Below are positions 1 through 14,669 of a stretch of 29,817 nucleotides of DNA, in pieces (the stretch's first letter is position 1; every line of letters starts with the position of its first letter). The notes beneath the pieces were generated by a model. That model searched no databases. It was not told where the DNA came from and saw only the letters and a list, made by a program, of their open reading frames with translations. This DNA comes from a virus. Made by a program: the position numbers and the translations under genes. The stretch covers positions 1 through 29,817 of the IMG/VR virus record IMGVR_UViG_3300031885_000078; one strand, 5' to 3'.

Positions 1-486
1 GAGGTAGCGGTCGAAACCTTGCACGCCTTGCTCGTTCATGATTGCTTCAGCTTGAGCCACATCATCAAAGCCGGATGCAGCGGTCGTGCGCTTTACCACG
101 AGGGTACCTTGCTGCGCCGCCACGTTCATGATGGCCAGATTGATGTCGCTGGCCAGCTTTTGCTTTGCAGAGTCACCCAAGCGCCCCTCTTGCAGCGTGT
201 CGCGCAGTTCGGTGGCTGTCAAAACCCACGGCACAGACTTGTTGAAGCCGATCGTAGACGGCACGCTCAGCTGCGTGAAGTCCTTGAAGTTCGAGGTCAT
301 GTCGGTACCGTCGAACGATTGCGCCACGTAGGGCTGAGGACGCCAAATGACGTTATTGGTGCGCTCCATCATCGCCTGGTCGGTGTTATAAACAGCGACA
401 TTGCGTGACAGCACCAGAGCATCATTAAAGCCCTCGAGGATGTCTTCGAACGCCACGCGTTCCTCTTTCGAAAATGCATTAGGCAT
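1..486 (-). CDS. Major coat protein, P22 gp5-like (partial, C-terminus beyond the left edge)
   Basis: The first 162 codons are visible and the frame is still open at the window edge. The N-terminal region MPNAFSKEERVAFEDILEG is followed by ERTNNVIWRPQPYVAQSFDG, which lines up with the RSSNTIWMPVEQES stretch of P22 coat; a later stretch resembling NVELKVANMAAEMGS of P22 reads SDINLAIMNVAAQQGT here. The protein would form the icosahedral shell. The ATG follows TTTGGAGATTGAATC, a usable ribosome site in the 24-base gap after scaffold. P22 coat is 430 residues, so well over half is missing. The family call comes from my memory of the P22 sequence and from position after portal and scaffold; both agree. 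Confidence 0.9.
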   Translation of the reverse strand, partial: MPNAFSKEERVAFEDILEGFNDALVLSRNVAVYNTDQAMMERTNNVIWRPQPYVAQSFDGTDMTSNFKDFTQLSVPSTIGFNKSVPWVLTATELRDTLQEGRLGDSAKQKLASDINLAIMNVAAQQGTLVVKRTTAASGFDDVAQAEAIMNEQGVQGFDRYL

Positions 487-510
487 GATTCAATCTCCAA
501 AAAAAATAGG

Positions 511-1353
511 TTAGGTGTTGCGCTTTTGCCGTTTGTAGGACATTACCTTTGAGTAATCTCCTGACTTCTCAGCATCTGCGCGAAGTCGATCAAGGGTGGA
601 ATCCACCGTGCCGGATACTTTGCCAGAACCCTGGACAGTTTTCTCAGGCGGCGGTGCCGCTTTGCGATTTGTAACCTTCAATTGCGTCTCCAGTTTTGCG
701 ACCGCAAAAGCGAATTTTACGGGGTCACTGATTGAGGCGAGTTCCTTGGCCTTCTTTGGGTTTTTGCCCAACGCATAGACCAGCAACGCGGGATTTTCAG
801 CGCCTTGAAGAATGACGCCTTGCTGAACGACGTTCAATGATTCCTGGGCGATTGCTTCGGCCTCATCGTAGTCTTTGACTTTCAGCTCTGCTTTCGCTTT
901 GCCGTAGCCTTCTAGCTTTGCTTGCCATTCCTTGGCTTGATTGTCTCGCTCTGCTTGCAGCTTTGCCACTTGTCGCTTGCGCTCAAACCAATTGGCCAGG
1001 CTTGCCTCGAATTTCTCCGCGTCGTAGTCAAAATCCTCTAGCGTTGGCTTTTTGCCAAGCTCCGTAACCGCTGGAGCGGCTGGCTCTTGGTTTAGCTTTG
1101 CTTCGAGTTCTCGATTGCGCTTCTGTAATTCTCGGTGCTGTTTGCGAAGTTCGCGTACCCACTCGGGCGCCGGTTTCTCTTCCTCTGGAGGTGGCGATTC
1201 CTCTCCGATGCTTACGATTACCTCGTCATCTTGTTCCGCTTCTGGCGCAGTTTCTGCGGATTGCTCTGGGCTTTCCGTTTCTTGCTGTGCCTCGATTGGT
1301 TCTTCGATGATTTCAGTTTGCTCGTTTACCTCGTTTTCTGCCGTTTCTGACAT
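511..1353 (-). CDS. Scaffolding protein (P22 gp8-like role)
   Basis: 280 residues lying between portal and coat, the position of scaffold in P22-like phages (P22 gp8 is 303 residues). The first ~60 residues are extremely acidic and Glu/Gln/Pro-rich, followed by a long charged helical or coiled-coil stretch (about residues 65-160, many K/E/A/L/Q). The C-terminus is basic (SYKRQKRNT), matching the P22 theme in which a basic C-terminal hairpin binds coat. There are no catalytic motifs. It should direct procapsid assembly and then leave the head. The start follows ATGGGGTAACT. Sequence identity to gp8 is not obvious by eye; the call rests on context and composition. Confidence 0.8.
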   Translation of the reverse strand: MSETAENEVNEQTEIIEEPIEAQQETESPEQSAETAPEAEQDDEVIVSIGEESPPPEEEKPAPEWVRELRKQHRELQKRNRELEAKLNQEPAAPAVTELGKKPTLEDFDYDAEKFEASLANWFERKRQVAKLQAERDNQAKEWQAKLEGYGKAKAELKVKDYDEAEAIAQESLNVVQQGVILQGAENPALLVYALGKNPKKAKELASISDPVKFAFAVAKLETQLKVTNRKAAPPPEKTVQGSGKVSGTVDSTLDRLRADAEKSGDYSKVMSYKRQKRNT

Positions 1354-1380
1354 AGTTACCCCATTGTTTGACTCACCCCA

Positions 1381-3450
1381 TTAAAGGCTGGGCGGATTGC
1401 CTGTATTCTGTTGCTGCTGCAAAGAGCCACCGATTGCTTGCGCAGTTTCAATGGCGGCTTTTTGCTGATTGGCGCTGACATTTGATAGGGTTTCAATTGT
1501 CTGCGCCCTAGTTTGTTCGGATTTTGCCACAGTTAGCACAGTATCTGCTTGTGCTTTCATGGCTTTTGCTTCAGCTTCTTTCGCTGCGCTCATCAAATAC
1601 ATGGCCTGCGGATCTGGTTGCTGGCCCTGCATTTCAGCCTGCATTTGTTCCGCTTCTTGCTCTGTTGCCTTCACGGCGCCCAACCGAACAAGCTTTCCTC
1701 GGAAATAATCGCGTACATCGCTCACGCCTTCGCCTTCGATATTCATCAAGGCCATGGCCGACAATACCTGCATCGTCTCAGGATCTTGCGTGACTTGCAT
1801 CATGCCGGTCAGTGCGCGCACGGTAGCCTGGCGCTTGCTGGAACTGGACGGGCCAACATCCACGGCAATATCAAATTCAGCTTCGCTCAGGTCGTTCTCG
1901 AATTCGACTTCGCCGGTTTCTTTATTGAGCGTTGGCCGCATCAATTCCACCGCTTCCGAAGTGCCGCCGGATGTAATGGCCTTCATCTTGCGGCCAGGCT
2001 CGACGAATATATCCTTGGCCATACTCAGCCAGATCTCGCCTGAGCGCTTCACAGACTTTGCCATGTTGCTCATGTAGATGAATGTCTGCATGTCAAGCCG
2101 CTGCTGGATCATCTCAATGGCTTTGCCGCTGATGTTGCTCACGACCTTGTCGCCTTGCTGCTGATTGCCGAGAACGTCCTGCATATCTTGCTCGGTTATC
2201 TGCAAGAGCGCGGCCATGGCAGGCGGCAAATTCGGTGCTTTGGTGTATGCAGCTGGCCCGCCGACTACCTGCTGGCCCATAGCATCCGTCACCGGGTTGA
2301 TAAGCAGGTAAGGATAGTTCTTGATGTTGTCCTCAGCCCACATCATCTGATGGCCGGCGATCTGCTCCGGCGTGAAGATCGGTTTCTCAACGCTGGACAA
2401 TGCGCTGATCTCGCCCAGCTTGGAGAGTTGCATATTCTTCAGTCGCTGAGCATCTTTTGCCAGGCGCACATGGCCCATACAGCGCTCAACCCCGTCGATA
2501 AACCAGCGCTTTCCGTACATCGGAACGATGGGGATATGCTTGCCTGCGATGTATCCGCAGTCTTCAAGCACTGCGCGCCCGCTCAAGATGTACTTGCGCA
2601 CTTTGCGGCGCTTGACCTTCTTTTGCCGCACTTCTTTGGCGCCGATGGCCTGCAATTCCACCAGCAAAGCGCCATCATCGGCCTCTAGTTCGGCGTCAGT
2701 GTGGCGTTCTTCCTCACCGTCCAGCATCTCGAAAACGCGCACAGTCTCGCTCGTTTCTTCGACGCGGTAGTACTCGGCCACGTAGACCAGATCCGGCGTG
2801 AGCCAGTCGAACTCGTGTTGAAAGATGTCTTTCGGCCAGCTCGCCGGATCATCTCCCCATTCTTCGGCGTATGCGTCACGGGTCATAGCCGTGAGAACGA
2901 AGCAGCGTTTTGCGTCTGCTTTGTCCTGGCGCTTGGCGTTCAGGTCAAAGAACACGCATGAATCAGCATCAAAGATCGGCTCGATGCGAATGCGCTGGCG
3001 TTCGTCCTCGTCGTCTTCCTCATCCTCGTACACAGTACGCAAGCGCCATGCACCGAAGCCGCCACCTACGGCTTCCTCGAAGGCGTTGTCATAAGCTTCC
3101 TCTGCTCCTGAATCCTGCTCATCGGCGCGATACAGACCATCGCAGGTTTCGGCCAGCTTGTCGTATTCGCTCTCGCCGTCTTTCGAAACGAAGTCAACCG
3201 TGATGCGGTTATTGCGGTATTCGTTGATGATGCGGATAACGGCCAGGTGAATTTTGTTCACTTCAAAACGTGGCTTGCTTTCAAACTGCTCGCCTATCTG
3301 GCCTTCCCACTGCGCGCCTGCGATTGAATAGAAACGCCGATCTTGCAAGCATTGCAGGCGCTCATCGCGCAGGGCAGATTGGATGGCGTCGAATTCGGCC
3401 ATTGCCTCGCTGTGAATTGCTGCCCACTTTTCCGCTTTGCTGCGCGCCAT
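1381..3450 (-). CDS. Portal protein, P22 gp1-like
   Basis: 689 residues against 725 in P22. Several stretches align with P22 portal: VGGGFGAWRLRTVYEDEE (P22 has VGAWRLVTDYEDQ), the AKRQDKADAKRCFVLTAMT region, GKHIPIVPMYGKRWFIDGVE, VRLAKDAQRLKNM, FTPEQIAGHQMMW and FDIAVDVGPSS. The C-terminal ~90 residues are Gln/Ala-rich and helical, as in the P22 barrel. It forms the dodecameric DNA channel at one vertex and docks terminase. The start is uncertain: the first ATG sits directly behind the T-run of a terminator-like hairpin and has no Shine-Dalgarno. The Met at residue 17 (about 3402) has GCGAGGCA in front but at very short spacing. The P22 alignment fits either start. Confidence 0.96.
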   Translation of the reverse strand: MARSKAEKWAAIHSEAMAEFDAIQSALRDERLQCLQDRRFYSIAGAQWEGQIGEQFESKPRFEVNKIHLAVIRIINEYRNNRITVDFVSKDGESEYDKLAETCDGLYRADEQDSGAEEAYDNAFEEAVGGGFGAWRLRTVYEDEEDDEDERQRIRIEPIFDADSCVFFDLNAKRQDKADAKRCFVLTAMTRDAYAEEWGDDPASWPKDIFQHEFDWLTPDLVYVAEYYRVEETSETVRVFEMLDGEEERHTDAELEADDGALLVELQAIGAKEVRQKKVKRRKVRKYILSGRAVLEDCGYIAGKHIPIVPMYGKRWFIDGVERCMGHVRLAKDAQRLKNMQLSKLGEISALSSVEKPIFTPEQIAGHQMMWAEDNIKNYPYLLINPVTDAMGQQVVGGPAAYTKAPNLPPAMAALLQITEQDMQDVLGNQQQGDKVVSNISGKAIEMIQQRLDMQTFIYMSNMAKSVKRSGEIWLSMAKDIFVEPGRKMKAITSGGTSEAVELMRPTLNKETGEVEFENDLSEAEFDIAVDVGPSSSSKRQATVRALTGMMQVTQDPETMQVLSAMALMNIEGEGVSDVRDYFRGKLVRLGAVKATEQEAEQMQAEMQGQQPDPQAMYLMSAAKEAEAKAMKAQADTVLTVAKSEQTRAQTIETLSNVSANQQKAAIETAQAIGGSLQQQQNTGNPPSL

Positions 3451-3475
3451 AAAAAAGCCCCGAAGTATCGGGGCT
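3451..3475 (-). terminator. Intrinsic terminator between the 95-residue gene and portal
   Basis: An 8-bp perfect stem AGCCCCGA/TCGGGGCT (3456-3463 with 3468-3475) with a 4-base loop. On the minus strand it is followed by a run of T that ends exactly at the portal ATG. This is the classic GC-stem plus U-tract form for minus-strand transcription. Confidence 0.8.
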
Positions 3476-3482
3476 GTTTATA

Positions 3483-3770
3483 TCACATTCTGCGCTTTCG
3501 ATTCTGGAAAAAGTCATCAATCAAGTCTTCCGCCTCTGCATGATCTGCTTTTGTCATCTTGTTGACCAGCCAGTTTGCGGGCCGGTAGTTGCGATCAAGC
3601 AGCTCCCATTCCATTTCAGTGTAGCCGTAGTAATCCATGTCTGAATCCCACGTATCCCGGCCATTGACCTTGTTGTAATGCTCAATGCCGAGCTTGCAAG
3701 GGATGCCGCAAATTTGAGCATCAATCACTGCCACGAATTTTTGATGCGCTTGGGTTTGGTACTTGTTCAT
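3483..3770 (-). CDS. 95-residue phage protein of unknown function, moron-like
   Basis: Soluble, 95 residues, no membrane segment. Near the N-terminus it has QICGIPCKLGIEHYNKV, then acidic/aromatic DSDMDYYGYTEMEWELLDR, and a charged C-terminus FFQNRKRRM. I recognise this general shape (a GIPC-x-x-G motif, then DYYGY..E.ELLDR) from uncharacterised phage proteins but know no function. The ATG at 3770 is chosen over upstream starts because it follows GAAAGGCGACAA and lies 35 bases downstream of a good promoter -10. The gene is bracketed by that promoter and by a terminator, so it can be expressed apart from terL and portal. Confidence 0.75.
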   Translation of the reverse strand: MNKYQTQAHQKFVAVIDAQICGIPCKLGIEHYNKVNGRDTWDSDMDYYGYTEMEWELLDRNYRPANWLVNKMTKADHAEAEDLIDDFFQNRKRRM

Positions 3771-3804
3771 TTGTCGCCTTTCGGTTTCGGGTTGCGATGA
3801 ATGA

Positions 3805-3833
3805 ATTCTGAGGCATTGCGCCCACAATGTCAA
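3805..3833 (-). promoter_or_regulatory. Sigma-70-type promoter for the 95-residue gene
   Basis: On the minus strand, a perfect -35 TTGACA (3828-3833), exactly 17 bases of spacer, and a -10 CAGAAT (3805-3810; 4 of 6 consensus positions). The expected start of transcription is near 3798, about 28 bases before the ATG at 3770. This is the best-looking host-type promoter in the window. Confidence 0.7.
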
Positions 3834-3853
3834 GCACAAAAGAGCACAAAAAA
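3834..3853 (-). repeat. 10-bp-phased direct repeat upstream of the 3805-3833 promoter
   Basis: On the minus strand TTTTGTGC occurs twice (3844-3851 and 3834-3841) separated by TC, so the two copies lie one helical turn apart and abut the -35. A near copy, TTTTGTGT-TC-TTTTGTAT, occurs on the plus strand at 18887-18904. The placement suggests a regulator-binding or upstream promoter element; that is inference. Confidence 0.55.
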
Positions 3854-5080
3854 TTACGCGCGACGGAATGCGGAGACAGTCGGGACGATTGCCACGCTTT
3901 GAGGCTTTGCCGCGGTCTGCGCTCGCCTGGCACCTTCGCACGCGTAGCGCAATGCGTCGATTACGTGATTGTCCCGATCATCGAGGATCGGTAGCACTTG
4001 CGAGGTGAGCGGGTCAATTTTGTAGCTGTAGGCGTTCAGTTCGTCAATTGTGTGAGTGCATCGCGGGTGCACGACGATGTCAAAAGACTTCAGCCACTCG
4101 ATGCCATCTTCCACACTACGCGGCCCTTTGACGGCGCCGACTATCTTTGGGAAGCCGTTTCGCCGCATGTGGCTGATTGTCTCCGGCCTGGAACTATCGG
4201 CCACGATCGGCCAACGCTCAGACTCAGGCACGCTCATGAAAAGGCTAGGCGTGTCCATGATCTCGCAGCCGATACGATAAGCCTCGTGATCTATGTATAG
4301 CGTGCGCCCGATGATGTGGCATCGCACCAGGACAGTCGGGTCAACCGCAAAGCCCCAGTCCGCGCCGTATCGATGGACAGCATCGGCAGGCGCTTCGAAC
4401 TCGTCAATGCGCCAGTTCTTGAACACTCGCGCCTCTGTGTTTTGCTGATACTGCCCGAGCCACACGTGCGCCCACTTTCCCGGGTCGCGCTTGCGGTCAT
4501 ACTCCATCTCATCGCGCAGCACGTCAGGAAACCACGGGTTGTCCTCGTAATTCACTTGCAGAACTATTGCATCCGGCGGCGGATTGTCGCCGCGCAGGAG
4601 CTTGTCCACCGGATCGTCTGGGCTCTCCGGGTTCCAAGTGAACAGAATCTCCGATCCTTCCTCACGGATCGTAGGACGCAACAGCTCCAGGCTGCGATGG
4701 CTCAAGCTTTGCGCTTCCTCGATCCACGCCACGTGATAGCCCTGAAGCGACTTGATCGAGTCTGCGGTATGGTTCTGCATCCCCATGAAGATGATTTGCC
4801 CGCCGTTCTTGGCCTTGATCTTGGCCTCTTGGATCTCGAAGTGATGCCCAACCCCGAGCGCCTCTATCTTTGCCTCAATCAGCTTCTTCACAGACTGATT
4901 CAGAGACTTCTGGATCTCACGGATGCACACGATATCGGTGCGCTTCATGAGCGACAGCTCAACTAGGTATTCCGCCACGAAGTGAGACTTGCCCGAGCCT
5001 CGTCCGCCGTATGCGCCTTTATAGCGCGCCGGTTTGAACCAAGGCTCGGCCCATGCTGGGGTTTCGATTTGCAGTTTCAT
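3854..5080 (-). CDS. terL: Terminase large subunit, Sf6/PBSX-type (Terminase_3)
   Basis: 408 residues. ATPase motifs: Walker A GGRGSGKS at 25-32 and Walker B VAWIEEA at 117-123 with catalytic-type Glu. The N-terminal pattern (FKPARYKGAYGGRGSGKSHF) resembles Sf6 gp2. The nuclease domain has DWGFAVDP (Asp241, Asp247), IVADSS (Asp295) and DNHVIDALRYA (Asp375), the acidic residues of the RNase-H-like fold. It pumps DNA into the procapsid and cuts it. The start is placed at 5080 because this ATG overlaps the terS stop as ATGA; a longer reading frame upstream lies wholly inside terS. It pairs a Sf6-like motor with a P22-like portal, as Sf6 itself does. Confidence 0.96.
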   Translation of the reverse strand: MKLQIETPAWAEPWFKPARYKGAYGGRGSGKSHFVAEYLVELSLMKRTDIVCIREIQKSLNQSVKKLIEAKIEALGVGHHFEIQEAKIKAKNGGQIIFMGMQNHTADSIKSLQGYHVAWIEEAQSLSHRSLELLRPTIREEGSEILFTWNPESPDDPVDKLLRGDNPPPDAIVLQVNYEDNPWFPDVLRDEMEYDRKRDPGKWAHVWLGQYQQNTEARVFKNWRIDEFEAPADAVHRYGADWGFAVDPTVLVRCHIIGRTLYIDHEAYRIGCEIMDTPSLFMSVPESERWPIVADSSRPETISHMRRNGFPKIVGAVKGPRSVEDGIEWLKSFDIVVHPRCTHTIDELNAYSYKIDPLTSQVLPILDDRDNHVIDALRYACEGARRAQTAAKPQSVAIVPTVSAFRRA

Positions 5081-5493
5081 TTCTTGACAATCACGCGCTC
5101 GATCTGCTGAATCGCAATTGGCCGGTCGGAGTCGCCGGACAGCTCCAGCTTGTCGCCCCACTTCTTCGGGGCCAGCTTGCTCAGTAGCCACTTGCGCGAG
5201 TCGATCTGCAGCCGCTGCTTCTGAACCGCGCCGTTGTCAGTCGCGCCGCTTTCAGTGCTTCCCACCGGAGCGTCAGCGATGGAGATGATCTCGGCGGCGA
5301 TGTGCTCGTGCAGGTCTTCGCGCGCGCGTGTGTATTCTTCGACGAGCGCGGGATTATTATTCAACCACTCGCTCAGCGTGCTTTGAGGAATCCCGACAAT
5401 TTGGCAAGCTTTGAATGCGCTATTTCCTTTTCGCATCAATGCGAATACTTGCTCAGCAATATCTACCTTTTCCTCTTCAGTTCTGCGTACCAT
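5077..5493 (-). CDS. terS: Terminase small subunit, Sf6 gp1-like
   Basis: 138 residues. The N-terminal ~55 residues form a helix-turn-helix DNA-binding domain (NSAFKACQIVGIPQSTLSEWL), followed by a helical region (EEYTRAREDLHEHIAAEIISIAD) suited to ring assembly. The stretch LQIDSRKWLLSKLAPKKWGD is typical of Sf6-type small terminases. It recognises the packaging site and recruits TerL. The ATG at 5493 is preferred over an in-frame TTG four codons upstream because GAGGTGGAAA stands directly before it. It overlaps the upstream DUF3310-like gene by 17 bases and terL by 4, so the three are probably translationally coupled. Confidence 0.92.
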   Translation of the reverse strand: MVRRTEEEKVDIAEQVFALMRKGNSAFKACQIVGIPQSTLSEWLNNNPALVEEYTRAREDLHEHIAAEIISIADAPVGSTESGATDNGAVQKQRLQIDSRKWLLSKLAPKKWGDKLELSGDSDRPIAIQQIERVIVKK

Positions 5494-5710
5494 TTTCCAC
5501 CTCAATGAGTTTATCCAAATAATGCCGCGCTTTTCTCAAATCCTCAATCCCGCCTTTATCTTTCCACCGTGCGATATATTTGATTGCATTTCCCTGTAGG
5601 AATCCTGAGAATGCCTCATGGCTCATCCAAGCCTCCATGGCATCCCATGGCTGGATCTCTTTCGTAGTGTAGTGCGTGCCGCCGATCTGGTGGAGTCTTG
5701 ATGTTGTCAT
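5477..5710 (-). CDS. DUF3310-like small phage protein
   Basis: 77 residues. IGGTHYTTKEIQPWD, then SGFLQGNAIKYIARWKDKGGIEDLRKARHYLDKLIE, matches the pattern of the DUF3310 family (IGG-HY..IQPWD, L.GN-IKYI.R...K.G..DL.KA..YL..L), common in phages next to replication or packaging genes. The molecular function is not established; some annotations call it a nucleotide kinase without good support. The ATG follows GAAGGAACGAAAGC. It is the first gene of the packaging operon after the G/C-rich spacer. Confidence 0.85.
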   Translation of the reverse strand: MTTSRLHQIGGTHYTTKEIQPWDAMEAWMSHEAFSGFLQGNAIKYIARWKDKGGIEDLRKARHYLDKLIEVENGTQN

Positions 5711-5750
5711 GCTTTCGTTCCTTCAAGTTCATCGGTTGAGAAGTTGCCCC

Positions 5751-5887
5751 AATTTTTCCGCATCCCGGTCCCCCTACCTCCCCCTAACGTATACGTTTTA
5801 GGGGAGGGGCGGGGGATTTTTCCGGGCTTTTGCCCCGAATCCCCCTAAACCCCCCTGGGGGACTTCGGGGGATTTAGGGGGATTTTT
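5751..5887. repeat. G/C-run spacer with nested inverted repeats
   Basis: The gap between the primase-helicase stop and the DUF3310-like gene is packed with runs of C then G. Visible elements: a 12-base palindrome AACGTATACGTT inside CCCCTA...TAGGGG arms (5781-5804); the motif GGGGGATTT three times (from 5811, 5867 and 5877); a small GGGC-TTTT-GCCC hairpin near 5824-5836; and a large imperfect hairpin pairing AATCCCCCTAAA (5838-5849) with 5873-5884 and CCCCC (5851-5855) with 5867-5871. The primase-helicase TAA lies inside the right arm. On the plus strand GGGGAGGGGCGGGGG followed by CCGGG could form a G-quadruplex. Its role is unknown: terminator, origin or packaging signal are all possible. 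Confidence 0.7.
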
Positions 5888-7928
5888 GATGTCCTCTTTT
5901 GCTAATCAAAAGTGCGCTACTGTGTGCGGGGTCGATGATAACCCAGCCCTTCTCGGCGGTTGCAATGATGCCAGAATTGAGCATTGGCATGATCATCCCG
6001 TCTTTGCGGCTGGCTTCTGTTTTATTCGTTGCGGTGCGTTCTGAAATACCGTCTGCAATCAGTAATTCTCTCAATGCGTTACGGCTAATATAAGGCAAAC
6101 CATCCTGTTCTTCGGCGCCGCCAGCCCAATATGCGCGTTGCAAAGTGCGGATATTCTCATCATGTTTTGTAGGTTTTTTGTGCGGTATAACTGACTCCGC
6201 ATCTAAATCAGGAATTGCCACGCAAGTCGTTGCGGCTTCACCGAATTTAGTAATCCCCATTTCGATTATTTCTAGTTTGAAATAGATGGTCTCACCTTTG
6301 CCTGGGAGTTCACGCTGCTTTGTGACGGTGACAGACCGAACGCCGTCCTTCTCTGCCACTTCGATTTCGGTGTCGATGTGTGCGCGGATTCCTGACCAGC
6401 CTCGGGCGCCCTTAGCCTGATCTTTTCCGTTGTGGTGGATGATCATCAAGGCGGCTCCGGTAGCGTGTGCAACTTGGTCAAAACGTGCCATGACTGGCCC
6501 CATGTCCTCGCCGCTGTTTTCGTTGGCTCCGGCGCTCATCCTGGCCAGCGTGTCGCCGATGATGAGCCGCACGGGCTTGCCTTTGATCTGTTCGACTGCT
6601 TTGACCAGCTCGATCACGTCATTGGCGTCCTGATCGCCAGAATAGAAGTTCATGGGCACTGGCACCATGGCCAGGTTCTCCAGGTTGCACACGTAGAACT
6701 TCTTGATTGCTTGCATGCGTGAGCGAATGCTGCCAGGTGCCTCGCTGGCCAGATAGACAACTAGGCCGGGATCTGTTCTGCGCCCGTAGCATTCTGCGCC
6801 GGTAGCAATGGCGGTTGCAACTGACAGCGCCCAGAATGTCTTACCTGAGTTGCTATCACCGTAGACCACTACCGAACTGCCGATTGTCATCAAGCCTTCG
6901 ACTAGCTCATTTGGTGCCTCGTATTCGTCGCCCAATTGATCGCCAAAGACAAGCTGCAACTTTTCAACGACTACTGAGCCGGTTTGTGGCATGAGCAGAC
7001 TAGACAAATCATGTCCAGCTTGCACATAATCGTTGGCATCCATGCCTTCGATTGGAGGGATGATCACGCGCGCGCCATACTTCGCGCTGGCTTGATCGGC
7101 GTACTTTTGCCCGGTGCCACTCTTGTCATGATCTGCGACGATCACGATTGATTGCTGCGGGCCGTACATCTCACGCAAGCTTCCAGTCACTGGAACGAGA
7201 TTGCTGGCACTGTAGGCAACTGCGCAAGGCCTGCCAGTCGATTCATAGATAGTTGCGGCGGTGGCGAATCCCTCGGCAATGTAAAGAATGCCAGGTTCGT
7301 CCATCGTTCCGAGCATCCAAAATTTGCCGCCTGACTTGCCGCCAGGGTGATAAAGCTTACCGCCTTCTTCATCAATGTATTGCAGCGTGCTCAGGGTGCC
7401 GTCTTGATCGTAAAGCGGCACCATCAGGCGCCCATCGCCGGTGATGCGAACTCCATGCGTCTGAATGCCCTTTCGCTTGAGATACGGGTGATCTGGGTGC
7501 GCGGCCACGCCACTGAGCCAGATTTTCTCAACGGTCTCGCTAGCGATTTTTTGCTGGCGCTCTAGCTCCGCATCGCGCAGCGCTTTAGATTCTGCGACAC
7601 GGCGAGCGTAGAACATCTCCTCGGCGTCTGACAATTTGCGGCCTATATCAGCTTTCCAGGTCATCTCAACGCCATACCTCCAGCACCCGAAGCGACCAGC
7701 CGGAACGCCATCCCCGAACACCAGATACCACCCAGGCTTATCGCCATGTCCTGGTGATCCCTTGGTGCCAGACCGAAAGCGGTGAATCTTGCCATCAAAG
7801 TGCAGCTCTTCGGGCGGATTCAATCCAGCCTTCAGCATGGCATCTCGCAGCTGCACCTCTGGCGCATCTACTCGCTTTTCCGGCGGTGGCGACCACGGCC
7901 CGCCGAGCACTTTTGAAAGATCAGCCAT
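5874..7928 (-). CDS. Toprim primase fused to RepA/DnaB-like helicase
   Basis: 684 residues. A Toprim domain carries ILYIAEGFATAATIYES (Glu219) and IVIVADHDKSGTGQKYA (Asp266, Asp268). A RecA-fold ATPase follows with Walker A GDSNSGKT (357-364), Walker B LIIGDTLARM (455-464) and IIHHNGKDQAKGARGWSG (~496-513), the pattern of the RepA-like AAA_25 helicases. The N-terminal ~140 residues have no clear zinc ribbon. The C-terminal ~100 residues probably form a winged-helix tail (ISRNALRELLIADGISERTATNKTEASRKDGMI). It should prime and unwind phage DNA at the replication fork. Its start overlaps the stop of the 58-residue HTH gene by 8 bases, so the two share a transcript. Confidence 0.92.
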   Translation of the reverse strand: MADLSKVLGGPWSPPPEKRVDAPEVQLRDAMLKAGLNPPEELHFDGKIHRFRSGTKGSPGHGDKPGWYLVFGDGVPAGRFGCWRYGVEMTWKADIGRKLSDAEEMFYARRVAESKALRDAELERQQKIASETVEKIWLSGVAAHPDHPYLKRKGIQTHGVRITGDGRLMVPLYDQDGTLSTLQYIDEEGGKLYHPGGKSGGKFWMLGTMDEPGILYIAEGFATAATIYESTGRPCAVAYSASNLVPVTGSLREMYGPQQSIVIVADHDKSGTGQKYADQASAKYGARVIIPPIEGMDANDYVQAGHDLSSLLMPQTGSVVVEKLQLVFGDQLGDEYEAPNELVEGLMTIGSSVVVYGDSNSGKTFWALSVATAIATGAECYGRRTDPGLVVYLASEAPGSIRSRMQAIKKFYVCNLENLAMVPVPMNFYSGDQDANDVIELVKAVEQIKGKPVRLIIGDTLARMSAGANENSGEDMGPVMARFDQVAHATGAALMIIHHNGKDQAKGARGWSGIRAHIDTEIEVAEKDGVRSVTVTKQRELPGKGETIYFKLEIIEMGITKFGEAATTCVAIPDLDAESVIPHKKPTKHDENIRTLQRAYWAGGAEEQDGLPYISRNALRELLIADGISERTATNKTEASRKDGMIMPMLNSGIIATAEKGWVIIDPAHSSALLISKRGHQKSP

Positions 7929-8097
7929 TGATTGCTCCGCCCTTCAAGTATTGAGACAGGAGCGTCATTGTCGCCCGATGTGGACGCGTTTTGCCAGAGG
8001 AAATTCTGTAAAGCGTGTGCGGGTTAAGGCCGATTGACTGCGCCACGGCCTGCAATTTGCGATCTGCGAGCGCAGCTTTGATCTCATCTAGTGTCAT
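7921..8097 (-). CDS. Small HTH transcriptional regulator (Cro-like)
   Basis: 58 residues, nearly all helix-turn-helix: LQAVAQSIGLNPHTLYRISSGKTRPHRATMTLLSQYL is the usual XRE/Cro-type pattern (A-x3-G-x5-L-x3-SG). The ATG at 8097 follows TTTTTGAGGCCGTGCACA; the longer upstream frame runs through the control region and is not used here. It sits first in the minus-strand replication transcript, next to the divergent early block, where a Cro-type switch protein would be expected. A palindrome AAGCGCTT lies at the predicted transcription start and may be its operator. No partner CI-type repressor is visible. Confidence 0.85.
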   Translation of the reverse strand: MTLDEIKAALADRKLQAVAQSIGLNPHTLYRISSGKTRPHRATMTLLSQYLKGGAING

Positions 8098-8144
8098 TGT
8101 GCACGGCCTCAAAAAAGTACAGAAAAAGTTGAATAAGCGCTTGC

Positions 8145-8173
8145 ATCTTAGCAAAAGCTGGCGCACACTACAA
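8145..8173 (-). promoter_or_regulatory. Candidate promoter for the HTH/primase transcript, with a palindromic operator candidate
   Basis: On the minus strand: -35 TTGTAG (8168-8173), a 17-base spacer, and an extended -10 TGC-TAAGAT (8145-8150). The predicted start is near 8138, inside the perfect palindrome AAGCGCTT (8135-8142). The -35 is weak (3/6) and the extended -10 compensates. No equally good plus-strand promoter for the early block is apparent in 8098-8220; TTGCAT with CACACT is the best and is poor. Confidence 0.4.
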
Positions 8174-8220
8174 CCACTGCACGAACTGATTCCCAGACGG
8201 TGCAGATTGAAAGGCAAGAG

Positions 8221-8517
8221 ATGAAGCTGATTGACATCAACGTTACCTCGGCAGACGAACTGGGGTTGCTTCTGGCGGAGATTGCTGATCTTGAAAAGCG
8301 TGTTGATGCTATCAAGGCCAGCATGAAAGACAAGGCAACGGTGCAAGGTGGAGAGAATGTGTTTGATGGTGCGATGTTCTGCGCAAAGGTTGTCGAGGCC
8401 AATCGCAAGGTGACGGATTGGAAAGCAATCTCCAAGGCCTGCAACATCCCCGCCGAAGTGATCGAGGCCAACACCAGCGTGACGGCTGCGTTCTCGGTCA
8501 AGGTCACATCCAAGTAA
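8221..8517 (+). CDS. First gene of the plus-strand early block, unknown function
   Basis: 98 residues. The N-terminal half is a charged amphipathic helix likely to be coiled-coil (ADELGLLLAEIADLEKRVDAIKASMKD). The C-terminal half ends in IPAEVIEANTSVTAAFSVKVTSK. There is no membrane segment or known motif. The ATG is preceded by GAAAGGCAAGAG. The helix-hairpin look and its place at the head of a recombination block recall small Gam- or nuclease-inhibitor-like proteins, but I see no specific motif for that, so it stays unassigned. Confidence 0.7.
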   Translation: MKLIDINVTSADELGLLLAEIADLEKRVDAIKASMKDKATVQGGENVFDGAMFCAKVVEANRKVTDWKAISKACNIPAEVIEANTSVTAAFSVKVTSK

Positions 8518-8525
8518 TCAGGAAG

Positions 8526-8547
8526 GGGCTCCAAAAACTGGAGACCC
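8526..8547 (+). terminator. Weak hairpin after the first early gene
   Basis: GGGCTCCA (8526-8533) can pair with TGGAG-A-CCC (8539-8547) with one bulged A and a 5-base loop, followed only by TGTTTA. There is no proper T-run. It may attenuate transcription or occlude the ribosome site (GGAG) of the small ORF at 8553. Confidence 0.25.
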
Positions 8548-8552
8548 TGTTT

Positions 8553-8666
8553 ATGGAACAAAACATGAACATCTCAGTGATAGTTTTCCAAAACGGCTAC
8601 CGTGAAGCCTCGCTTCATGGTGCGATCCTCGTCGTGCGACCTGACGGGTCTCACTATTTGCTTTAA
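8553..8666 (+). CDS. Possible 37-residue small protein
   Basis: Begins MEQNMNISVIVFQNGYRE and ends VVRPDGSHYLL. It lies in the otherwise empty 270-base gap before the Sak4-type gene. GGAG stands 9 bases before the ATG. It is compact with a beta-strand-like pattern and a hydrophobic N-terminal stretch too short to be a confident membrane segment. There is no family recognition. The remainder of the gap (8667-8789) holds only a 23-codon frame without a convincing ribosome site and the ribosome site of the next gene. Confidence 0.4.
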   Translation: MEQNMNISVIVFQNGYREASLHGAILVVRPDGSHYLL

Positions 8667-8789
8667 AGATGCTGGAGAAAATGCGCCAGCGTCAAAGCAA
8701 ACAAGCCTATGGCTTTGCGCAGGAAAGCGTGCAAGAATAACACCCCGGCCTAGCAATGGGCCGATCTCAACAGCCAACCGGAGAACCAA

Positions 8790-9461
8790 ATGGCTATCAA
8801 CTTGAAGCGCAGTTCCGCGCTTTCTATGAGCGGCGTAAAACTGCTCGTTTACGGGCAAGCTGGCGCTGGCAAAACCTTGCTCATCCCCACATTACCGGCG
8901 CCCATTGTCCTGAGCGCTGAAGGCGGCTTGCTTTCAATTGCTGGGGCCGATGTGCCTTACATCGAGATCGCCAGCATGGGCGACTTGATGGAGGCTTACA
9001 AATGGCTCTCAGAAAGCGCCGAAGCAGCTCAGTTTCAATCGGTGGCGCTGGACAGCATCAGCGAGGTGGCTGAGGTGGTGCTGAATGCTGAAAAGAAAGC
9101 CAGCAAAGACCCGCGCCAAGCATACGGCGCGATGCAAGAACAGATGGCCGACATCATTCGGGCCTTCCGCGACCTGCCGGGTCGTCACGTTTACATGAGC
9201 GCGAAGCTGGAGAAGACACAGGACGAAATGGGCCGCGTGCTGTATTCGCCCAGCATGCCGGGCAACAAAACCGGCCAGCAATTGCCCTACTTCTTTGACG
9301 AGGTGCTGGCACTGCGTGTGGCACGCGATGCCGAAGGCAATACCCAGCGGGCTTTGATGTGCGATTCTGACGGTCTGTGGCTTGCAAAAGATCGCAGCGG
9401 CAAGCTAGAAACGTGGGAAGCGCCTGACTTGGGCGCAATCATTGCAAAGATTGGAGGCTGA
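8790..9461 (+). CDS. Sak4-type RecA-like ATPase (AAA_24, single-strand annealing)
   Basis: 223 residues. Walker A GQAGAGKT at 22-29 after the strand VKLLVYG, and a Walker-B-like SVALDSIS with Asp88. The pattern LLIPTLPAPIVLSAEGG.LSI and the C-terminal PYFFDEVLALRV.. with GLWLAKDRSG are typical of the phage AAA_24 family that includes the Sak4 recombinases. Expected role: ATP-binding recombination/annealing mediator acting with the ssDNA-binding protein two genes downstream. GGAGAACCAA precedes the ATG. The stop is followed one base later by the next ATG, so translation is coupled. Confidence 0.88.
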   Translation: MAINLKRSSALSMSGVKLLVYGQAGAGKTLLIPTLPAPIVLSAEGGLLSIAGADVPYIEIASMGDLMEAYKWLSESAEAAQFQSVALDSISEVAEVVLNAEKKASKDPRQAYGAMQEQMADIIRAFRDLPGRHVYMSAKLEKTQDEMGRVLYSPSMPGNKTGQQLPYFFDEVLALRVARDAEGNTQRALMCDSDGLWLAKDRSGKLETWEAPDLGAIIAKIGG

Positions 9462-9462
9462 A

Positions 9463-9849
9463 ATGCAAGAGCTTGAGCAACTGAGCCAAGAATGGATCAT
9501 GGCCAAAGAAGCGGAGAAGCGCGCAGTCGCAAAGCGCCGTGAGGCAGAAGACAAGCTGACAGCACTGCTAGGCGTCAAGCCAACACTAGAAGGCACTGAG
9601 AGTCATCTCGTGCCTGGCTTGAGCATCAAGATCGTGGGCCGACTTGATCGCAAAGTCGATGCAGACAAAGCGCAGGAGATCGCTGCCGAGGCTGGTTTGA
9701 ATGCTTACCTTTCAACGCTTTTCCGGTGGAAACCTGAAATCAACATGTCTGCCTGGAAATCCACCGATTCACAAATCACCGAGCTTTTTTCGCACGCGGT
9801 CACGGTCATGCCAGGCCGTCCGTCTTACACCATCACCATCAAGGAGTGA
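9463..9849 (+). CDS. Unknown protein between the Sak4-type ATPase and the DUF669 protein
   Basis: 128 residues. Residues 1-45 form a Lys/Glu/Ala-rich coiled coil (EKRAVAKRREAEDKL). The rest is a compact alpha/beta domain with GLSIKIVGRLDRKVDADKAQEIA, LFRWKPEINMSAWK and a C-terminal PSYTITIKE. The ATG at 9463 is chosen for the ideal GGAGG spacing (TTGGAGGCTGAA). Genes of this size and shape recur between AAA_24 and DUF669 genes in proteobacterial phages, so a part in recombination or replication is likely, but no activity can be read from it. Confidence 0.8.
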   Translation: MQELEQLSQEWIMAKEAEKRAVAKRREAEDKLTALLGVKPTLEGTESHLVPGLSIKIVGRLDRKVDADKAQEIAAEAGLNAYLSTLFRWKPEINMSAWKSTDSQITELFSHAVTVMPGRPSYTITIKE

Positions 9850-9854
9850 ACATC

Positions 9855-10349
9855 ATGGCGTTTCTTTCACAATCTTTCGACGTAGCCGACCTGCCCCAAT
9901 CATCCGGTGGCAATTTTGAGCCACTGCCCGCGGGATGGTACAGCGTCACTATCGCGGGTGCCGAACTGAAAAACACAAAGGCAGGAAATGGCCAGTTCAT
10001 CGCAGTTCGCTATGACGTGACCGGGCCGACTCACCAGGGCCGCGTGGTTTTTGGCAATCTGAACATTCAGAACCCGAACCCCAAGGCCGAGGAAATTGGG
10101 CGCCAGCAACTTGGCGAACTGATGCGCGCTATTGGCCTTGCCAAAGTTACCGACACCGATCAACTGATCGGCGGCAATCTGCAAATCAAGCTTGACATCA
10201 AGCGCGATGAGCAGTACGGCGACAAGAACGAGGTGCGCGGCTTCAAGGCCGTGAGCGGTGGCGCATTGCCTAGCGTCGCGCCAACTGCTATGCCTATGCA
10301 ATCCATGGCTGCACCTGCAAAGGCTGCGCCGCCGTGGGCTAAGAAGTAA
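9855..10349 (+). CDS. DUF669 protein, probable ssDNA-binding protein
   Basis: 164 residues. The pattern FEPLPAGWYSVTIAGAELKNTKAG followed by YDVTGPTHQGRVVFGNLNIQNPNPKAEEIGRQQLGEL fits the phage DUF669 family, an OB-fold-like group usually coded beside Sak-type recombinases and thought to bind single-stranded DNA. The C-terminal tail is low-complexity Ala/Pro/Met ending PPWAKK and lacks the acidic tip of bacterial SSB. The start at 9855 is chosen because AAGGAG lies 8 bases upstream; a GTG at 9846 overlapping the previous stop is a weaker choice. A terminator hairpin follows the gene. Confidence 0.85.
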   Translation: MAFLSQSFDVADLPQSSGGNFEPLPAGWYSVTIAGAELKNTKAGNGQFIAVRYDVTGPTHQGRVVFGNLNIQNPNPKAEEIGRQQLGELMRAIGLAKVTDTDQLIGGNLQIKLDIKRDEQYGDKNEVRGFKAVSGGALPSVAPTAMPMQSMAAPAKAAPPWAKK

Positions 10350-10360
10350 TCAATCAACCC

Positions 10361-10382
10361 GCCCGGCTTGTGCCGGGCTTTT
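10361..10382 (+). terminator. Intrinsic terminator after the DUF669 gene
   Basis: A perfect 7-bp stem GCCCGGC/GCCGGGC with a TTGT loop, followed by TTTT. The T-run is short, so it may be partial, letting some transcription reach the helicase-methyltransferase gene. Confidence 0.6.
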
Positions 10383-10394
10383 GAGGTTTACACG

Positions 10395-12596
10395 ATGAAT
10401 TCATACGATTCATTTGTCGCACAGAAAAGACGCGCAGAAGTGGCAACTGGACACGCTCCAGGTGATTTGAATGAATACCTGAAGCCATTTCAGCATGCCG
10501 TTGTGTCATGGGCGGTGCGCCGTGGGCGTGCTGCCGTATTTGCTGACACTGGCCTTGGAAAGACAATCATGCAATTGGCATGGGCCAATGAAGTGCAATC
10601 GCATACTGGTGGAAAGGTGCTCATTTTGGCCCCGTTGGCTGTATCAGAGCAGACGATTGAAGAAGGCGCAAAATTTGGCATTGAAGTGCAGCGCGTTCCG
10701 TTGGGTCAAGATATACCGAGCACTGGAGTATGGATCACCAACTACGAGCGCATGGATGCCATTGATTTTGCTGAATTGCATGGCATTGTTTTGGATGAAT
10801 CAAGCATTCTCAAGGCGCATGATGGAAAAACACGATCACGCATCATTGAGGCATCGCAGGGTGTTCCGTATCGTCTGAGTTGCACAGCCACACCCAGCCC
10901 GAATGATTTTGAGGAGCTTGGCAATCAGTGCGAGTTCCTTGGCGTGATGACTCGAACCGAGATGCTTGCAACGTACTTCGTGAACGACACCGGAGACACG
11001 GGCACATGGCGACTCAAAGGATGGGGCGCTGCGAAGTTCTGGGAATGGATGGGCACTTGGGCTGTTGTGATCCGTAATCCTTCCGATATTGGATTTGATG
11101 GCTCTGAATACGACTTGCCAGCACCAGAATACATTGAGCACGTTGTTCAAACAGAAGTGCAATCCATTGATGATTTATTTGGACGTCCTGCCATGGGATT
11201 GGCAGAGCGCAGGAAAGCACAGCGCGACAGCATTGATGCTCGATGCAAAGCATTGGCTGATGTCGTAAACGCTCAAAGCAATGAGCCGTGGTTGATTTGG
11301 TGTCACTTGAACGACGAGGCAGAATTTCTGCAAAGCATGATTCCTGGCAGTGTCAATGTGCAAGGCTCAGATAGTGCAGAAGTCAAAACAAAAGGCATGA
11401 TGGATTTCACGCATGGGAAATTGCGTGTTTTGATTTCCAAGCCCAAGATTTGCGGCTTTGGCATGAATTGGCAGCACTGCGCTCGCATGGCATTTGTCGG
11501 TCTTGATGATTCATTCGAGAAGTTCTATCAAGCGGTGCGCCGATGCTATCGCTTTGGACAAAAGCGCAATGTGCAAGTGCATCTATTCACCGCTGAGAAT
11601 GAAGGCCAGATTTTGGCCAATCTCAAACGCAAAGAGACTCAGCACCATGAAATGAGTGCAAACATGATCGAACATATGAAAGACATCATGAATCAAGAAT
11701 TGGCCGGGCAAGTAAACATTGTGGACGAATACAAAGAAGACACATACCACGGGGAAGGTTTCACGGTGCATCTCGGTGATTGCGTGAAATGGACGCAGCG
11801 CATGGCTAACGATAGCATTGACTATTCTGTTTTCTCTCCGCCATTTGCTGATCTGTTTGTGTATTCAAACAGCGATCATGATATGGGCAATTGCAAAGAC
11901 GATGCAGAGTTTGTAGCGCAACTGAAATTCCTGATTTCTGAATTGTTCCGTGTCTTGAAGCCTGGACGCAATGTGTCATTCCATTGCATGAATCTACCGA
12001 CAACCAAGATGCGCCAAGGCTTCATTGGGTTGCGTGACTTTCGAGGCGATCTGATTCGCGCATTTCAGGATGCTGGCTTTATCTATCACTCCGAAGTGTG
12101 CATTTGGAAAGATCCAGTTGTGGCAATGCAGCGTACCAAGGCGCTTGGATTGCTGCATAAAACGATCCGAGAAAACAGCACTATGAGCCGCATGGGATTG
12201 CCGGACTATGTTGTCACGATGCGTAAGCCTGGTGATTGCGAAGAGCGTGTTACGCATGGAGATGATCTACCAGTGATGATGTGGCAGAAATATGCCAGCC
12301 CAATTTGGGATGACATCAACCAAGGGCGCACCTTGAACAAGCTGCCAGCACGTGATGAGAACGACGAAAAGCATATGTGTCCACTGCAACTTGATGTTAT
12401 TGAACGATGCATTCACTTGTGGACTAACAAAAATGATCTTGTATTCAGTCCGTTCACTGGTATCGGATCAGAAGGCTATACAGCAGTCAAGATGGGCCGG
12501 CGCTTTATCGGGACTGAATTGAAGCCGCAATACTGGGATTTGGCATGTCAAAACATACAAGATGCGCGCAACGATCAGCGTGGATTGTTTGAGTAA
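10395..12596 (+). CDS. SNF2-type helicase fused to DNA methyltransferase
   Basis: 733 residues in two parts. Residues ~25-400 are an SF2/SNF2 ATPase: motif I DTGLGKT (51-57), motif II LDESS (133-137), motif III TATPSPND (164-171), and motifs V-VI GFGMNWQHC and QAVRRCYRFGQKR (~354-391). Residues ~450-730 are an amino-methyltransferase: HLGDC (459-463), motif IV SPPF (481-484), then AdoMet-binding motif I FSPFTGIGS (684-692) and GTELKPQYW. This beta-type motif order with SPP[FYW] is more usual in N4-cytosine than N6-adenine enzymes. No nuclease domain is seen. It probably translocates on DNA and methylates it, for protection from host restriction or regulation. Base composition is lower in GC than the neighbouring DUF669 gene, hinting at separate acquisition. 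Confidence 0.9.
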   Translation: MNSYDSFVAQKRRAEVATGHAPGDLNEYLKPFQHAVVSWAVRRGRAAVFADTGLGKTIMQLAWANEVQSHTGGKVLILAPLAVSEQTIEEGAKFGIEVQRVPLGQDIPSTGVWITNYERMDAIDFAELHGIVLDESSILKAHDGKTRSRIIEASQGVPYRLSCTATPSPNDFEELGNQCEFLGVMTRTEMLATYFVNDTGDTGTWRLKGWGAAKFWEWMGTWAVVIRNPSDIGFDGSEYDLPAPEYIEHVVQTEVQSIDDLFGRPAMGLAERRKAQRDSIDARCKALADVVNAQSNEPWLIWCHLNDEAEFLQSMIPGSVNVQGSDSAEVKTKGMMDFTHGKLRVLISKPKICGFGMNWQHCARMAFVGLDDSFEKFYQAVRRCYRFGQKRNVQVHLFTAENEGQILANLKRKETQHHEMSANMIEHMKDIMNQELAGQVNIVDEYKEDTYHGEGFTVHLGDCVKWTQRMANDSIDYSVFSPPFADLFVYSNSDHDMGNCKDDAEFVAQLKFLISELFRVLKPGRNVSFHCMNLPTTKMRQGFIGLRDFRGDLIRAFQDAGFIYHSEVCIWKDPVVAMQRTKALGLLHKTIRENSTMSRMGLPDYVVTMRKPGDCEERVTHGDDLPVMMWQKYASPIWDDINQGRTLNKLPARDENDEKHMCPLQLDVIERCIHLWTNKNDLVFSPFTGIGSEGYTAVKMGRRFIGTELKPQYWDLACQNIQDARNDQRGLFE

Positions 12597-13992: not shown

Positions 13993-14304
13993 ATGAACAC
14001 TATCAACATCAATGGAATTGAATATAGCCCTGTTACCGAACCCACTCAAAAAATTGAGTGGGCTCGAGCAGTTGTGGTTGTAGACCGGGGCTGGATTTTC
14101 GCTGGCGATGTGACCCGCGAAAACGGGCGCATTAAATTGTCTCGTGCCGTGCACGTTTTCCGGTGGGAGAGTATTGGATTTGACGGAATGATCGCATCTC
14201 CAAAGAGTAATAAAGTCACACTGAAGCCGATGCCCGACGGAGTGGATATTCCAGGGGGCGCAGAACTTTTTTCGGTTCCTGTAGCAGATGATTGGGGGAT
14301 GTGA
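13993..14304 (+). CDS. Small beta-rich phage protein, possibly DUF6948-like
   Basis: 103 residues. The core WARAVVVVDRGWIFAGDVTRENGRIKLSRAVHVFRW, then a Lys/Ser-containing loop (SPKSNKVTLKPM) and GAELFSVPVADDW, resembles the DUF6948 type as I remember it: small phage proteins often coded just before a Gly-rich repeat ORF, as here. The function is unknown. AAAAAGGAAATTTGAA precedes the ATG, one of the strongest ribosome sites in the block. The stop overlaps the next start (TGATG). A 9-bp perfect hairpin lies within codons 17-24. Confidence 0.75.
   Translation: MNTININGIEYSPVTEPTQKIEWARAVVVVDRGWIFAGDVTRENGRIKLSRAVHVFRWESIGFDGMIASPKSNKVTLKPMPDGVDIPGGAELFSVPVADDWGM
14041..14062 (+). other. Perfect 9-bp hairpin inside a coding sequence
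   Basis: CCCACTCAA (14041-14049), loop AAAA, TTGAGTGGG (14054-14062). It starts about 48 bases after the ATG of the 103-residue gene. There is no T-run on either strand, so it is not a standard terminator; an mRNA structure slowing ribosomes or binding a regulator is possible. Confidence 0.5.
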
Positions 14305-14669
14305 TGTTTAAGCCTGCAGGCAACGGCTACGGCGACGGCAACGGCTACGGCGACGGCAACGGCTACGGACACGGCTACGGCTACGGCGACAACAACGGCA
14401 ACGGCTACGGCCACGGCAACGGCAACGGCTACGGCAGCGGCTACGGCTACGGCTACGGCTACGGCAACGGCTACGGCGACGGCTATGGCTATGGCTACTG
14501 CCACGGCTACGGCTATGGCAACGGCCACGGCTACGGCTACGGCAGCGGCTACGGCGACGGCTATGGCTATGGCTATGGCTACTGCCACGGCTACGGCTAT
14601 GGCAACGGCCACGGCTACGGCTACGGCAGCGGAACCGTATCTAACTCAAGAATGCGGAGGAGCAAATGA
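14304..14669 (+). CDS. Gly-Tyr dipeptide-repeat protein
   Basis: 121 residues. After MFKPA, about 100 residues alternate Gly with Tyr, Asn, Asp, His or Ser (GNGYGDGNGYGHGYGYGD), ending in a basic TVSNSRMRRSK. Two Cys occur at equivalent places in a duplicated segment (YGYCHGYGYGNGHGYG). It has no fold I recognise; such Gly/aromatic sequences are disordered and prone to self-association, and comparable ORFs occur in other phages after DUF6948-like genes. The ATG is preceded by TGGGGGATGTG and overlaps the upstream stop. Codons are almost all GGC with TAC or TAT, so the coding repeat is also a DNA repeat. Confidence 0.75.
   Translation: MFKPAGNGYGDGNGYGDGNGYGHGYGYGDNNGNGYGHGNGNGYGSGYGYGYGYGNGYGDGYGYGYCHGYGYGNGHGYGYGSGYGDGYGYGYGYCHGYGYGNGHGYGYGSGTVSNSRMRRSK
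14319..14632 (+). repeat. GGCNAC-type tandem repeat with a 78/84-base duplication
   Basis: The whole stretch is built of 6-base units (GGC TAC, GGC AAC, GGC GAC and so on). An 18-base unit CAACGGCTACGGCGACGG is repeated at 14321 and 14339 with a partial third at 14357. A larger tandem duplication covers 14471-14548 (78 bases) and 14549-14632 (84 bases), differing by one extra GGCTAT unit in the second copy. That is the mark of slippage or unequal exchange, so length probably varies between relatives. Confidence 0.9.

Follow-up and report, generated by a model that had tools for sequence, protein, structure and literature searches.

Morons, as defined for lambdoid phages (Hendrix 2000, Juhala 2000, as given in PMC6814406 and PMC6316719), are single small optional genes that have their own promoter, lie between conserved genes and end in a hairpin. 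The term now also covers insertions without signals of their own (PMC6316719). In the siphophage SPP1 three moron ORFs (ORFs 3-5) lie between terL (gp2) and the portal gene (gp6) (PMC6316719), so that morons at this position are already known. The window, by which we mean the whole 29,817-nt stretch of viral DNA that was analysed (IMG/VR record IMGVR_UViG_3300031885_000078), holds a clear member of that kind. It shares with the lambdoid morons all the features just named; unlike in those morons, its hairpin is common to gene-free relatives and there is no sign of lysogeny. SPP1 is alike in position and unlike the window in having three ORFs and in being a Bacillus phage.

The closest described relatives of the protein itself are YuA gp49 (PF20788) and the solved structure 3pes, with which it shares family, fold and an invariant GIPC motif. 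In Yuavirus M6, unlike in the window, the family gene belongs to a run of small genes that precede terS, and the M6 record notes no gene-specific promoter for it.

Layout of the terL-portal junction

The original prediction described a complete transcription unit between terL and the portal gene. Its promoter, ribosome site, 95-codon gene and hairpin with T-run are all present where it had placed them:

5077..5505 (-): terminase small subunit
3854..5080 (-): terminase large subunit terL (TIGR01547), with conserved start MKLQIQT and stop at 3856-3854
3834..3850 (-): two TTTGTGC copies 10 bp apart, immediately upstream of the -35, from comparison
3833-3828 (-): putative promoter -35 hexamer TTGACA, the same in every filled junction
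3810-3805 (-): putative promoter -10 hexamer CAGAAT, 17-nt spacer to the -35, the same in every filled junction
3782-3777 (-): Shine-Dalgarno-like GAAAGG within a conserved leader
3483..3770 (-): 95-codon gene of the PF20788 YuA_Gp49 family, by profile match, ATG at 3770 and TGA at 3485-3483
3451..3475 (-): terminator-like 8-pair G+C-rich hairpin (3475-3456) with T6 (3456-3451), from folding
1381..3450 (-): portal protein of Sf6/P22 type

On the minus strand the hairpin/T6 immediately adjoins the portal ATG at 3450. The best solved-structure match of the portal is 7sfs (Gene 3 protein, E 1.7e-132), which we take to be the Sf6 portal, and the P22-type portal 3lj5 also matches (E 1.4e-85). With a portal of that type after terL, the window has an Sf6/P22-type head module. 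An Rfam scan of window positions 1-12000 gave no match.

To see how general this arrangement is, we queried IMG/VR with three sequences, those of the gene, terL and portal, which gave up to 80 loci apiece, and measured the terL-portal gap in each contig having both terL and portal. Seven contigs, including the window, have a family member inside a gap of 403-672 bp. In seven near relatives (terL 83-95 % and portal 89-96 % identical) the gap is exactly 46 bp and holds no gene, and 71 further contigs, mostly at 60-75 % identity, have a gap of at most 65 bp, again with no gene. The junction runs straight through in 78 relatives; the tight form is its normal state and the gene is optional, as originally predicted. 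The gene is accordingly not a feature of all relatives that lacks promoter and terminator. The family is rare in this phage group: among 24 relatives with contigs of at least 30 kb none carries it, and the gene therefore appears dispensable. The portal tree gives no supported separation of filled from empty junctions.

The same junction holds an insert of about 1 kb in two contigs with a different portal type (L065 6236-7289 and L067 1779-2832), including an ORF that by eye resembles an HNH endonuclease. These two are like the window in having extra DNA at this place and unlike it in portal and ORF; the junction thus takes inserts repeatedly.

Promoter and hairpin

The TTGACA/CAGAAT pair has 10 of 12 consensus matches. 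Scanning for the motif found 3 sites in 10 kb compared to 5.8 expected in shuffles, which is not beyond chance, and the motif by itself therefore proves no promoter. Comparison is more telling. Across the five filled haplotypes the hexamers vary at 0/12 positions and the spacer at 8/17 (Fisher p 0.009); in the same haplotypes 148/300 portal third codon positions vary, and judged against these the spacer appears to change at about the neutral rate. Because the hexamers are conserved while the spacer varies, we accept this as a likely sigma70-type promoter, and the claim that the gene has a promoter of its own appears well founded. The region of the TTTGTGC repeats varies at 1/17 positions with both copies kept in all five haplotypes, making the repeats a candidate operator or activator site, and the leader varies at 4/35 sites. 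Searching IMG/VR with the promoter core matched only contigs with this cassette. In the rest of the window, the best promoter match is a TTGACA-16-CATAAT (21799-21772, minus strand, 11/12) at the end of a tail-spike-like gene, before small lysis-like genes, possibly a second internal promoter of the late region.

The hairpin folds at -17.1 kcal/mol (z -5.6) and is clearly non-random. Here the original prediction holds in part: a terminator-like hairpin with T6 does follow the gene, but each of the seven empty junctions has the same hairpin and T-run directly next to the portal ATG. Since the hairpin is present without the gene, the terminator is not specific to it. More generally, a suspected moron may be followed by a terminator that is not part of it. 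Across junctions the stem pairs are kept and the loop bases and length vary; among the more distant relatives sampled, no such hairpin was found at the terL-portal junction.

Filled junctions and empty ones both have a short motif, AATGTG[A/G]TATAAAC, ahead of the hairpin, in L013 only in part. The last codons of the gene, ATG TGA, fall inside this motif, whose A form supplies the stop codon in the window and in L002, L004 and L008; in four of the five haplotypes the stop codon lies 7-8 nt ahead of the hairpin. The 3' arm of the hairpin contains the only ribosome-site-like sequence of the portal gene, GGGG. An extended -10-like TG-N-TATAAA immediately precedes the hairpin whether the junction is filled or empty; we considered it as a portal promoter and rejected it, as it has no -35 and its start would fall inside the hairpin.

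One explanation for the shared hairpin is that promoter, gene and hairpin entered the common ancestor as a whole unit, the seven empty junctions being deletions and the hairpin their scar, in which case the terminator would be the cassette's own. The 71 outgroup junctions lack the gene and the sampled ones lack the hairpin, so that a joint arrival is conceivable, and the AATGTGRTATAAAC stretch beside the hairpin is common to filled and empty junctions. However, each loss would have to retain the hairpin precisely, the empty junctions bear no trace of the promoter repeats, and two of the phages with empty junctions still have the family in their early operon. We regard this history as possible and rather unlikely.

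We favour, with reasonable confidence, a moron-type accessory gene placed after terL, expressed from a sigma70 promoter, using an existing terminator and probably acting early. One sub-clade of podovirus-like phages with Sf6/P22-type portals would have gained a YuA_Gp49-family accessory gene at the terL-portal junction. Host RNA polymerase would read it from the sigma70-type promoter independently of the late operon, and the transcript would end at the hairpin that also stands at the portal start in gene-free relatives. The insert would thus comprise promoter and gene, with a terminator that was borrowed or left over, and diverged alleles were probably exchanged by recombination through the conserved promoter-leader on one side and the flank towards portal on the other. 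Of the predicted moron, an optional gene with a conserved promoter of its own is supported; a terminator of its own and expression in lysogens are not.

Divergence of the gene under a shared promoter

Compared with L008/L010, the window is 90-93 % identical in the promoter-leader and 85-90 % in the flanking terL and portal, and its gene has 53-58 % nucleotide and 38-52 % amino acid identity. This pattern indicates either replacement of the gene or its rapid divergence beneath an unchanged promoter. Purifying selection acts on the ORF (dN 0.028, dS 0.23), an estimate that rests on the window and L002, the comparison with L010 being set aside because its codon registers were out of alignment and its sites are saturated. 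The gene has a G+C content of 47.6 % compared to 57.5 % for terL and 54.8 % for portal, so that the differing base composition used to recognise morons is present, weakly.

In L008, L009 and L010 the stretch from terL to the promoter is longer by about 270 bp. This extra piece holds an ORF:

L008 2342-2548 and L010 2552-2758 (-): minus-strand ORF of the extra piece, diverging from the gp49 promoter

It is 58 % identical between the two contigs and extends into the end of the oppositely oriented terL; it has no family match, and no homologue was found outside these loci. In L010, TTTGTGCGCTT occurs twice, at the left end of the extra piece and ahead of the promoter, and a deletion between these repeats would appear to have produced the window form.

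We tentatively hypothesize that the junction works as an exchange slot anchored by its promoter, in which a fixed, selected promoter-leader and the portal-start hairpin would hold the place while strongly diverged alleles of a single accessory protein are swapped under the same control. As the stop codon lies near the hairpin and the 3' arm contains GGGG, a ribosome ending on the gene could open the hairpin and so couple its translation to that of the portal gene. We regard this reading as possible and rather unlikely.

Empty junctions, filled junctions, junctions filled with a diverged allele and genomes with the gene in the early operon form a natural series for how optional genes enter a head operon, and an unusually clean comparative series for a moron-type insertion.

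The protein family and its probable role

The gene product matches PF20788 YuA_Gp49 (E 4e-15, 56.2 bits compared to a curated cut-off of 27) and phrog_6858, and it is related to the solved structure 3pes. The proposed structure prediction of the 95-residue protein was run with AlphaFold2 (pLDDT 87), and the model has the 3pes fold (Foldseek E 9e-4, probability 1.00, TM 0.64-0.72). The protein is predicted to be a small fold of beta hairpins with a C-terminal helix. Beyond 3pes the fold search gave one confident uncharacterised viral relative and otherwise weak matches; several of these were T4-type head vertex chaperones, which we rejected as insignificant (E 0.16-1.7). The GIPC motif is invariant in 37 family members, which are mostly acidic (median pI 4.5, compared to 5.5 for the window protein). 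The protein matches no known anti-phage defence protein in PADLOC-DB and nothing in NCBIfam, and a literature search turned up no paper on the function of YuA gp49 or 3pes.

In other phages, PF20788 members are found among small early, non-structural genes, often few genes before terS. The window has no second copy of the family gene. L013 and L016, whose terL-portal junctions are empty, have a family member elsewhere on the opposite strand. In L016 it precedes the ATPase gene of the early operon, and both phages appear to carry it in that operon. An ArdC-type gene lies just upstream of the family gene in 6/80 loci, and an ArdB/KlcA-type gene is in the same cluster in M6; these are unrelated types of anti-restriction gene, in two phage groups. 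The early-block setting and the anti-restriction neighbours point weakly to early action in counter-defence or takeover, weakly because such neighbours occur in 6/80 loci only, several of them near-identical. Most likely the protein would serve host takeover or counter-defence at an early stage and be non-essential, a guess that we hold with low confidence. A small, widespread phage family whose function is unassigned and which keeps its regulation while the protein diverges shows the pattern expected in an arms race.

Alternatively the gene may be an ordinary late gene tied to DNA packaging, maybe assisting it, and read mainly from the late operon. The family often stands just before terS/terL, with terS within four genes downstream in 27/76 loci and the M6 gene two genes before terS, and here it stands behind terL. 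We nevertheless find this improbable, given its absence from the 24 long relatives, which have a related terminase, its own conserved promoter and the fact that small unrelated genes commonly lie where the early block ends.

A moron of lysogenic conversion that is active in a prophage and affects the host or superinfecting phages would agree with the gene's own promoter and classical moron position but is very improbable, as the window has neither a tyrosine integrase nor a serine integrase/resolvase although its non-structural region looks complete, only 5/27 relatives have a tyrosine integrase, and no prophage relative was found. A terL search of 84,980 bacterial genomes gave no close relative, the nearest being a 35 % match in one MAG; the predicted expression in lysogens has no support. 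The window seems to miss only structural genes, since its non-structural block looks whole.

Two further features of the window stand apart from the junction. Positions 10368-12596 (+) encode a 742-aa protein with an SNF2/DEAD helicase half and a C-terminal N4/N6 DNA methylase domain. At 14292-14669 (+) a long repeat has a Gly/Tyr-rich frame, with an Ala/Val repeat frame on the opposite strand.
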